Source: an uncultured Eubacteriales bacterium
Lineage (GTDB): Bacteria; Bacillota; Clostridia; Christensenellales; Aristaeellaceae
DNA: 64,000 bases
Direction: 5' to 3'
NCBI GenBank assembly: GCA_902760595.1
Contig: CACWHI010000003.1
Location: 1 to 64,000, forward strand
Notes under the pieces: generated by a model
Told to the model about the DNA's origin: nothing
Database searches by the model: none
What the model saw: the letters and a program-made list of their open reading frames with translations, nothing else
Shown here: piece by piece, positions 37,708 through 40,701 of the stretch
Layout: each line of letters starts with the position of its first letter
How positions within the stretch are numbered: the first letter of the stretch is position 1
Program-made: the position numbers and the translations under genes

Positions 37708-37733
37708 AGAAATAATAAAGGAGAATGACCGCA

Positions 37734-39173
37734 ATGGCAGACAAGAAGCAGGAGTTTGTAACTCATATCACGCCCCGTGACAAGGACTTTTCCCAGTGGT
37801 ATACGGACGTGGTCACCATGGCCGACCTGATGGATTACACCCCGGTGCGCGGCTGCATGGCCATGAAGCCCTACGGCAACCGCATCTGGGAGCTGATCCG
37901 CGAGGGGCTGGACCGCCGCTTCCAGGAGACAGGGCACGAGAATGTGTCCATGCCCATGCTGATTCCCGAAAGCCTGCTGCTGAAGGAGGCCGAGCACGTG
38001 GAGGGCTTCGCGCCCGAGGTCGCGTGGGTCACCCAGGGCGGCACCGAAAAGCTGCAGGAGCGGCTGGCCGTGCGCCCCACCAGCGAGACCATTTTCTGCA
38101 CCATGTTCGCCAAGTGGGTCGAATCCTGGCGCGATCTGCCGCTGAAATATAACCAGTGGTGCTCCGTCATGCGCTGGGAAAAGACCACCCGTCCCTTCCT
38201 GCGCACCGCGGAATTCTGGTGGCAGGAGGGCCACACCGTGCACGCCACCGCCGAGGAGGCGGAGGAGGAGACCATGACCATGCTCAACGTGTACCGCGAT
38301 TTCGCGGAGCAGGAGCTGGCCATGCCCGTGTTCTGCGGCCAGAAGTCCGATAAGGAAAAGTTTGCCGGCGCCCGCGCCACTTATTCCATCGAGGCTATGA
38401 TGCAGGACGGCAAGGCCCTGCAAGCGGGCACCTCTCACAACTTCGGCACCAACTTCTCCGTGCCCTTCAACGTCCAGTACCTGAGCAAGGAGGGTAAGCT
38501 GGAATACTGCCATGAGACCAGCTGGGGCGCCTCCACCCGCCTGATCGGCGCCATCATCATGACCCACGGCGACGAGCGCGGCCTGAAGCTGCCGCCCGCC
38601 ATCGCGCCTTACCAGGTGGTGCTGGTGCCTGTGGCCGCGCACAAGGGCGGCGTGCTTGAAAAGTGCGCCGAGGTGGCGGAAGAGCTCCGCAAGGCCGGCC
38701 TGCGCGTGAAGCTGGACGACCGCGACAACGTGTCCCCGGGCTTCAAGTTCAACGAGTGGGAGCTCAAGGGCGTGCCCGTCCGCGTGGAGATCGGCCCGCG
38801 TGACATCGAAAAGGGCGCTGCCATGGTCTGCCGCCGCGATACGTTCGAAAAGGCGTCGCTGCCGCTGGAGGGCCTGGGCGAGACGCTGGTGAAGATGATG
38901 GACGATATCACCGCCAACATGTTCAGGGTCGCGGACGAGTTCCGCAAGGCCCACACCAAGGATGTTTTCAATATGGATGAGCTGGGCGAGCAGGTCAACG
39001 GCGGCTATGCCCGCGCCATGTGGTGCGGCGACCGCGCCTGCGAGGACGAGATCAAGAACCGCTTCAGCGCCACCTCCCGCAACATGCCCTTCGACCAGAC
39101 CCCCATCGGCGAGACCTGCGTCTGCTGCGGGAAGAAGGCTAATAAGGTCATGTACTTCGCGAAGGCGTACTGA
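37734..39173 (+). CDS. proS: Prolyl-tRNA synthetase, eukaryote/archaeal-like type
   Basis: A 479-residue class II synthetase charging tRNA-Pro. It lacks the large editing insertion of the long bacterial type and matches the archaeal/eukaryotic-like form: motif 2 around RWEKTTRPFLRTAEFWWQEGHT, motif 3 HGDERGLKLPPAIAP, and the C-terminal domain ending ETCVCCGKKANKVMYFAKAY with a Cys pair of the zinc-like fold and a terminal Tyr, as is typical for this group. The ATG at 37734 lies 10 nt after AAGGAG; an ATG 9 nt upstream is too close to it. Short gap to gyrA. Confidence 0.95.
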   Translation: MADKKQEFVTHITPRDKDFSQWYTDVVTMADLMDYTPVRGCMAMKPYGNRIWELIREGLDRRFQETGHENVSMPMLIPESLLLKEAEHVEGFAPEVAWVTQGGTEKLQERLAVRPTSETIFCTMFAKWVESWRDLPLKYNQWCSVMRWEKTTRPFLRTAEFWWQEGHTVHATAEEAEEETMTMLNVYRDFAEQELAMPVFCGQKSDKEKFAGARATYSIEAMMQDGKALQAGTSHNFGTNFSVPFNVQYLSKEGKLEYCHETSWGASTRLIGAIIMTHGDERGLKLPPAIAPYQVVLVPVAAHKGGVLEKCAEVAEELRKAGLRVKLDDRDNVSPGFKFNEWELKGVPVRVEIGPRDIEKGAAMVCRRDTFEKASLPLEGLGETLVKMMDDITANMFRVADEFRKAHTKDVFNMDELGEQVNGGYARAMWCGDRACEDEIKNRFSATSRNMPFDQTPIGETCVCCGKKANKVMYFAKAY

Positions 39174-39197
39174 TTCATAAAGCGTTTGGGCGGCCTC

Positions 39198-39253
39198 TTG
39201 ACTTGCCAGTGGCTTCCCCTTATAATGCAGATGGTTAACCAGCTTAGCTAACC
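39198..39253 (+). promoter_or_regulatory. Promoter and possible operator of toxin-antitoxin pair
   Basis: TTGACT (39198-39203), 17-nt spacer, TATAAT (39221-39226). An inverted repeat GGTTA (39233-39237) and TAACC (39249-39253) follows at the transcription start, where an autoregulating antitoxin would be expected to bind. Confidence 0.65.
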
Positions 39254-39275
39254 CAACTGCGAAAGGAGGCTGGCA

Positions 39276-39533
39276 ATGACGACGGTCAGTATGTTCGAGG
39301 CAAAGACCAATCTTTCAAAGTACGTCTCTTCTGTCGCGGATAAAAAGGAGCCGTATGTCGTCATTTCCCGCAATGGAAAGCCGGTGGCGAAGATTGTTCC
39401 GTTTGCGGAGGATTGCTCGCGGCGTATCGGTATCGCGGCGGGAAAACTGCCGCAAATGGCCGACCTTGAGGAATTCAACGCCATCGATGCGGAGATCGGG
39501 GAAGACTTTTACGGAAAGGGTGCATTGAGATAA
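39276..39533 (+). CDS. Phd/YefM-family antitoxin
   Basis: An 85-residue antitoxin: the N-terminal Phd/YefM DNA-binding fold (TTVSMFEAKTNLSKYVSSV, EPYVVISRNGKPVAKIVP) and a C-terminal toxin-binding tail. This class represses its own operon and neutralises the partner nuclease. GAAAGGAGG precedes the ATG. The TAA stop overlaps the presumed start of the PIN toxin; a single base makes it TAA rather than the TGA expected in an ATGA overlap. Confidence 0.9.
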   Translation: MTTVSMFEAKTNLSKYVSSVADKKEPYVVISRNGKPVAKIVPFAEDCSRRIGIAAGKLPQMADLEEFNAIDAEIGEDFYGKGALR

Positions 39534-39937
39534 AGCTGCTTCTGGATACGCATGCGCTCATCTGGGCGCTGACTGACGATCCGCGTTTGTCGGAAGCCGC
39601 AAGAGAAAGTATCCTCTCTCCGGAAAACACCATCTATTACAGTACGGCTTCCCTCTGGGAAATAGCGATCAAAAATCAGAAGGCGCCGGACCGGTGCCCT
39701 TATAACGAAAAAGACGTAGAACGCTTTTGCGAGAAGGCGGGCTTTCTGCCGATGAGCATCCGGAACGAATATGTGACAGGATTGCGTGAGCTCAAAGTCA
39801 GACCGGGACGCTGTCTCAGGAACTATGATCCGTTTGTCCGGATCCTTCTCAGCCAGGCCAGGGCGGAAGGCTGCCGGCTGATGACGCATGACGCGAACAT
39901 GGCGAACTATCAGGAAGATTGTATTTTTGTGATATAG
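39530..39937 (+). CDS. PIN-domain toxin (VapC-like) with apparent ATA start
   Basis: A 135-residue PIN nuclease if started where the family starts, [M]KLLLDTHALIWAL. Acidic active-site residues are visible: D in LLLDTH, E in SLWEIAIK, and D residues in the C-terminal part (NYDPFVRILL, THDANM). No ATG, GTG or TTG exists at the expected position: the codon is ATA (39530-39532), within AGATAAAG. The first usable codon, TTG at 39587, would remove the first active-site Asp. GGAAAGGG lies about 10 nt upstream of the ATA. The gene is therefore either translated from a rare start or silenced. Confidence 0.75.
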   Translation: MKLLLDTHALIWALTDDPRLSEAARESILSPENTIYYSTASLWEIAIKNQKAPDRCPYNEKDVERFCEKAGFLPMSIRNEYVTGLRELKVRPGRCLRNYDPFVRILLSQARAEGCRLMTHDANMANYQEDCIFVI

Positions 39938-39948
39938 GAGTGTAGTCT

Positions 39949-40701
39949 ATGGGCACCGAAAGCAAAAACAAGGAAGAACAGCGCCGGGAGCTGAACGGCA
40001 TCACCTATTTCGACCGCGGGCGGCTGACCGGGCGCGACGGAAAGCGGTACGACCGGTTCGCCATCCAGACCCACTTCATCGAGGTGGGGGAGGACCAGGC
40101 GGAGCTGGTGAAGCGCTATGTGCTGCCGCTGTACCAGAAGGGCGACGTGCTGGCCTTCGGCGCGAAGGTCATGGCCATGTGCACGAAGAACGTGCGCACC
40201 AAGGAGCAGGTGCATCCGGGCTTCTGGGCCAAGGCCCTGTCCCGCCACGCCAGCGAGACCAAGGCGGGCATCGGCATGCACGACGCCTATAAGCTGCAGC
40301 TGGCCATCGACATGGTCGGCGCGCCGAAGGTGGTGTTCGCCTCCGTCGCGTCAGCGGTCACCAAGCTGTTCGGCGTGCACGGCGTGTTCTATAAGATCGT
40401 GGGCCCCGGCGTGGCCGGCATCGACGGCTTCTATTACCGGTCCTCCTTCGACCGTTACAAGGACCTGGCCCTGATCAACAACGAGAATCCCGTGGAGCTC
40501 TGCGACGCGCTGGAGAAGGCCACCGGTGTGCCCGTGGTGCTGATGGACGCGAACGACATCGACCAGAACCAGCTGGGCAAGTGCTCTGATTTTCCGCTCA
40601 GCGACGACCAGATCCAGGACGCGCTGAAGGACAATCCCTCCGGGCAGGGCGGCGAGCTGACGCCCTTCATTCTGATCCGGCCTGTTGAGGCGAACGCATG
40701 A
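39949..40701 (+). CDS. F420-0:gamma-glutamyl ligase-like (CofE-like) protein
   Basis: A 250-residue protein with the CofE-like fold found in many Bacillota that do not make F420. Segments QTHFIEVGEDQAELVKRYV, GDVLAFGAKVMAM, and VVLMDANDIDQNQLGK fit the family. True CofE adds glutamate to F420-0; the substrate in this lineage is unknown. AGGAG lies 8 nt before the ATG. Its end overlaps the PHP-hydrolase start by 4 nt (ATGA), so the two probably act together. Confidence 0.75.
   Translation: MGTESKNKEEQRRELNGITYFDRGRLTGRDGKRYDRFAIQTHFIEVGEDQAELVKRYVLPLYQKGDVLAFGAKVMAMCTKNVRTKEQVHPGFWAKALSRHASETKAGIGMHDAYKLQLAIDMVGAPKVVFASVASAVTKLFGVHGVFYKIVGPGVAGIDGFYYRSSFDRYKDLALINNENPVELCDALEKATGVPVVLMDANDIDQNQLGKCSDFPLSDDQIQDALKDNPSGQGGELTPFILIRPVEANA

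Follow-up and report, generated by a model that had tools for sequence, protein, structure and literature searches.

A Phd/YefM-PIN toxin-antitoxin module with a probably inactivated toxin and an intact antitoxin

Introduction

The module described here has its closest known counterparts among characterized VapBC systems. Mycobacterium tuberculosis VapBC5 (3DBO) shows the same pairing, a PF02604 antitoxin with a PF01850 toxin (PMC5086665). VapC5 carries all four acids of the PIN active site (Asp26, Glu57, Asp115 and Asp135), whereas in our toxin the third is valine and the start codon is ATA. Shigella flexneri VapC (3TND; active-site variants 5ECD and 5ED0) belongs to the same PIN fold family and its Asp98 corresponds to residue 103 of our toxin, but its antitoxin is of a different class and the sequence similarity is weak (E=0.006). 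Asp98 is an acidic active-site residue of the Shigella enzyme (PMC3384007). In Haemophilus VapC1, changes at the equivalent Asp99 abolish toxicity (PMC4229260); according to work that this paper cites, the D99N protein still binds VapB1 as well as the promoter.

Degeneration of chromosomal toxin-antitoxin modules is already documented (review, PMC10305079). In those modules the toxin is lost and the antitoxin persists, as at our locus; they degenerated by deletion or frameshift, whereas here the start codon has gone and one active-site residue is replaced. The locus is a new example of an already known type, a switched-off toxin gene that is beginning to decay. Its best relative, a PIN/Phd module from the same taxonomic family (G011, L078), has the same gene order, with a toxin 59% and an antitoxin 65% identical to ours. 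Unlike ours, the G011 module has an ATG in a TGATGA junction, a strong Shine-Dalgarno sequence and Asp103.

Results and Discussion

A two-gene Phd/YefM-PIN module is inserted between two conserved genes. We analysed a 64,000-nucleotide stretch of DNA (the window), which lies on contig 3 of a 2.67-Mb source genome in 63 contigs. The insert (39174..39948, plus strand; ~775 bp) lies between the prolyl-tRNA synthetase gene proS (37725-39173) and a conserved gene that is weakly F420-ligase-like (39949-40701). It encodes an 85-aa Phd/YefM antitoxin (39276..39533, plus strand; PF02604 PhdYeFM, E=2e-11) and a PIN-domain toxin frame of 135 codons without stop or frameshift (39530..39937, plus strand; PF01850 PIN, E=1e-10). 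Both Pfam classes score over cut-off and the frames overlap, which places the pair among Phd/YefM-PIN (VapBC-like) type II modules. The genome contains a second PIN module (paralogue C22, G000:C22:18384-18776), whose toxin is 45% identical, starts with ATG and keeps the DPFDR motif intact; a third PIN-domain gene lies at G000:C1:47506-47835. The product of the downstream flanking gene scores 19.4 bits against F420 ligase (PF01996), below the cut-off of 25.

The toxin frame carries ATA where its relatives start with ATG or GTG. The antitoxin frame ends GGT GCA TTG AGA TAA, and the ATA (39530..39532, plus strand) overlaps its stop codon (TAA, 39531-39533); the whole junction (39519-39539) reads GGTGCATTGAGATAAAGCTGC. 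From 39530 the toxin frame continues ATA AAG CTG CTT CTG GAT ACG CAT, or IKLLLDTH. In this frame no ATG, GTG or TTG follows the upstream stop (39467) until a TTG at 39587, where initiation would drop the LLLDTH motif, including the first catalytic Asp. With only ATA before 39587, the gene lacks the canonical start expected of a translatable type II toxin.

Comparison with homologues, some from the same taxonomic family and others from elsewhere among bacteria, points to the loss of an ordinary start. The aligned codon is ATG in 26 and GTG in two of the 28 closest relatives, mostly in an ATGA overlap with the antitoxin stop. More broadly, 101 of 103 distinct (non-redundant) homologues have a canonical start at -10 to +3 codons, the exceptions being the window copy and one Sodalis copy. 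Because ATG or GTG occupies the aligned codon in all 28 closest relatives, usually overlapping a TGA antitoxin stop, an ancestral canonical start at this codon is well supported by the alignment. The nearest group (G011, G036, G138, G001 and G053) has the junction TGATGA, two bases away from the AGATAA of the window; AGATGA, the ancestor implied by an earlier note on this DNA, is a possible intermediate and is absent among these nearest relatives. The overlap geometry of the two frames is common to the window and its relatives. The earlier note had placed the ATA at these same coordinates over the antitoxin's AGA TAA, proposed that it replaced an ATG lying over a TGA stop, and held that the antitoxin still ends normally; the coordinates and the normal antitoxin end are confirmed, the relatives support the lost ATG, and the 85-aa antitoxin frame is intact. 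The Sodalis copy (Sodalis sp. dw_96, L044:2001), the only other homologue of the 103 without a nearby canonical start, is probably another decaying copy.

The toxin's Shine-Dalgarno region is weak. The stretch CGGAAAGGG (39512..39520, plus strand) pairs with the anti-Shine-Dalgarno at -7.4 kcal/mol, a value matched or bettered at 16% of random window positions. Pairing is stronger in 26 of 28 close relatives (-8.3 to -14.0 kcal/mol), most of which have GGAGG. Because the relatives' GGAGG partly doubles as antitoxin coding sequence, this weakness counts as supporting evidence only.

An otherwise invariant catalytic residue of the toxin is replaced. Alignment with homologues places GTC (Val; 39836..39838, plus strand) at residue 103, the position of the catalytic Asp of the DPFDR motif, a residue that all 105 homologues compared retain. 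Across an alignment with 34 relatives, it is the sole departure of the window toxin from the fully invariant positions. Asp6, Glu44 and Asp121 of the PIN active site are present, and the valine leaves the set of four acids incomplete. A family-profile search of the PDB aligned the residue 103 column with Asp98 of Shigella VapC 3TND (E=0.006, a weak similarity), and the same alignment includes a deposited variant chain with Asn in that column. The profile was required, as a PDB search with the toxin sequence alone returned no matches; 3DBO was not among the matches of the profile search. Since the invariant catalytic Asp is replaced by Val, we predict by homology that the toxin protein, if translated, is not a nuclease. 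A single-sequence structure model of the toxin was set aside (mean pLDDT 42.5).

As judged from sequence, the lesions are restricted to the toxin side, with the promoter, the antitoxin ribosome-binding site and the antitoxin frame preserved. We place the damage there because the antitoxin shows no departures at positions at least 90% conserved among relatives and a near-consensus promoter stands upstream. This sigma-70-like promoter, TTGACT-17-TATAAT (39198..39226, plus strand), is assigned by consensus match only, with 11/12 matches and 0.5 such sites expected in shuffles. The antitoxin's Shine-Dalgarno sequence, AAAGGAGG upstream of 39276, is strong (anti-Shine-Dalgarno pairing -11.9 kcal/mol). 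Directly 3' of the -10 box lies an imperfect inverted repeat, GGTTAACCAGCTTAGCTAACC (39233..39253, plus strand), which palindromes overlap and which is a possible operator bound by the antitoxin.

Very probably, then, the locus is an acquired Phd/YefM-PIN (VapC-like) type II module whose toxin has been inactivated, with antitoxin, promoter and antitoxin ribosome-binding site preserved. It would have arrived by horizontal transfer, in the space between proS and the gene that follows. Loss of the toxin start codon would leave no useful amount of protein being made, and replacement of catalytic Asp103 by Val would, by homology, deprive any toxin produced of nuclease activity. Two independent routes, translation and catalysis, would thus have detoxified the module and made the toxin an early pseudogene, and either lesion would make the other nearly neutral. 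A toxin with lesions relative to intact relatives, beside an intact antitoxin, is the pattern of a degenerate (detoxified) module. As a counterpoint to decay, the toxin frame is open over 135 codons and one invariant position is changed, so decay is slight. The earlier note had envisaged silencing by one G-to-A change. Silencing stands, but the single-base picture does not, given two junction differences from TGATGA, the weak toxin Shine-Dalgarno and Asp103Val. The locus offers a clean, well-bounded natural case of an acquired toxin disarmed by few changes with its antitoxin intact, and its lesson is to check the active site alongside a missing start codon before proposing non-canonical initiation.

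It is unlikely that the module has instead turned regulator. Such a module would combine the intact antitoxin, acting as autoregulator, with a trace of catalytically dead PIN partner made from a near-cognate codon. It would be kept for co-repression of the operon, for protection against related toxins, or for the transcription and ribosome-binding signals that it carries for the downstream gene. Retention of the antitoxin as protection against related toxins, putative here, is a testable idea. The co-repressor version, in which a dead toxin made at low level is kept as antitoxin partner and the pair is a domesticated regulator, draws on VapC1 D99N, reported in work cited by PMC4229260 to be non-toxic while retaining binding to VapB1 and to the promoter. 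The intact antitoxin, promoter and possible operator are consistent with it, as is a toxin otherwise well conserved. However, the toxin's start codon and Shine-Dalgarno are both degraded and no relative shows this combination of features, and we consider co-repression improbable.

Low-level translation of an active toxin is less probable still. ATA and ATT are near-cognate start codons, and low-level initiation at such codons is possible, here at ATA (39530) or ATT (39524). The earlier note had suggested real initiation at ATA as a way of keeping toxin levels low. By that account, ribosomes do start on the toxin at ATA (or ATT 39524), though very rarely, through termination-reinitiation at the ATAA overlap, and this would be a device that keeps active toxin scarce. 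The open frame, the overlap geometry conserved with relatives, the residual Shine-Dalgarno-like stretch ~9 nt upstream and the near-cognate nature of both codons all speak for it. Yet genuine ATA initiation should be conserved in relatives or backed by a proven product, and comparison of homologous loci, one of the checks that the earlier note had named, found none with ATA at the aligned codon. The toxin's Shine-Dalgarno is also weaker than that of nearly all relatives, and with the catalytic Asp gone, active toxin is not expected. The suggestion thus finds no positive support, its product would lack a catalytic residue, and we regard it as very unlikely. A pattern scan for ATAA followed by an LLDTH-like stretch, covering 396 genomes of the order, returned three other ATAA matches. 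These did not include a PIN toxin preceded by an antitoxin gene, and on reading we dismissed them as chance.

A separate homologue is a better candidate than the window for near-cognate initiation. This PIN homologue, from a Fibrobacteres MAG (L025:2001), has CTG at the expected start in a CTGA overlap with the antitoxin stop, and its catalytic acids are intact. We did not accept it as a second near-cognate case, given an in-frame TTG three codons downstream.

That the bases at 39532 and/or 39837 were misassembled or miscalled, or belong to a minor strain variant, is very unlikely: the source is a 63-contig draft of 92% completeness, but start, Shine-Dalgarno, Asp103 and altered junction would all have to be wrong in one gene beside a clean antitoxin, and base-call error could account for one lesion but not comfortably for all of them.

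The gain of the module appears recent, because neighbouring genomes lack the insert and its composition is foreign. Four genus mates (G004, G005, G003 and G006) have no module at proS, which is followed by the downstream gene within about 10-18 bp; G001, G002 and G007 carry other sequence 3' of proS. GC content is 0.521 in the insert versus 0.621 in the window, and GC3 is 0.62-0.64 in the insert genes versus 0.89-0.91 in the flanking genes. Most simply, the module would have been gained on the source lineage after its split from G004 (proS dS 0.37).

Inactivation of the toxin is probably recent as well. Had the toxin been unconstrained along the whole branch since the split from G004, its 405 bases should have collected several stops or frameshifts, and the frame has none. 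For the toxin compared with its closest homologue, synonymous sites are saturated (dS 2.3), and dN/dS is uninformative on the time since start loss. We found no close relatives in viral contigs, and plasmid records held only relatives below 60% identity, with no sister copy by which to date the changes.

The 3' end of the module may have become useful to its neighbour. The toxin stop lies within ATAGGAG (window:39932-39949), which looks like the Shine-Dalgarno sequence of the F420-ligase-like gene. Where relatives lack the insert, the downstream gene carries its own GGAGG directly 3' of proS. The module's tail, and possibly also its promoter, may now serve the downstream gene, and the dead toxin could be deleted more slowly for that reason.
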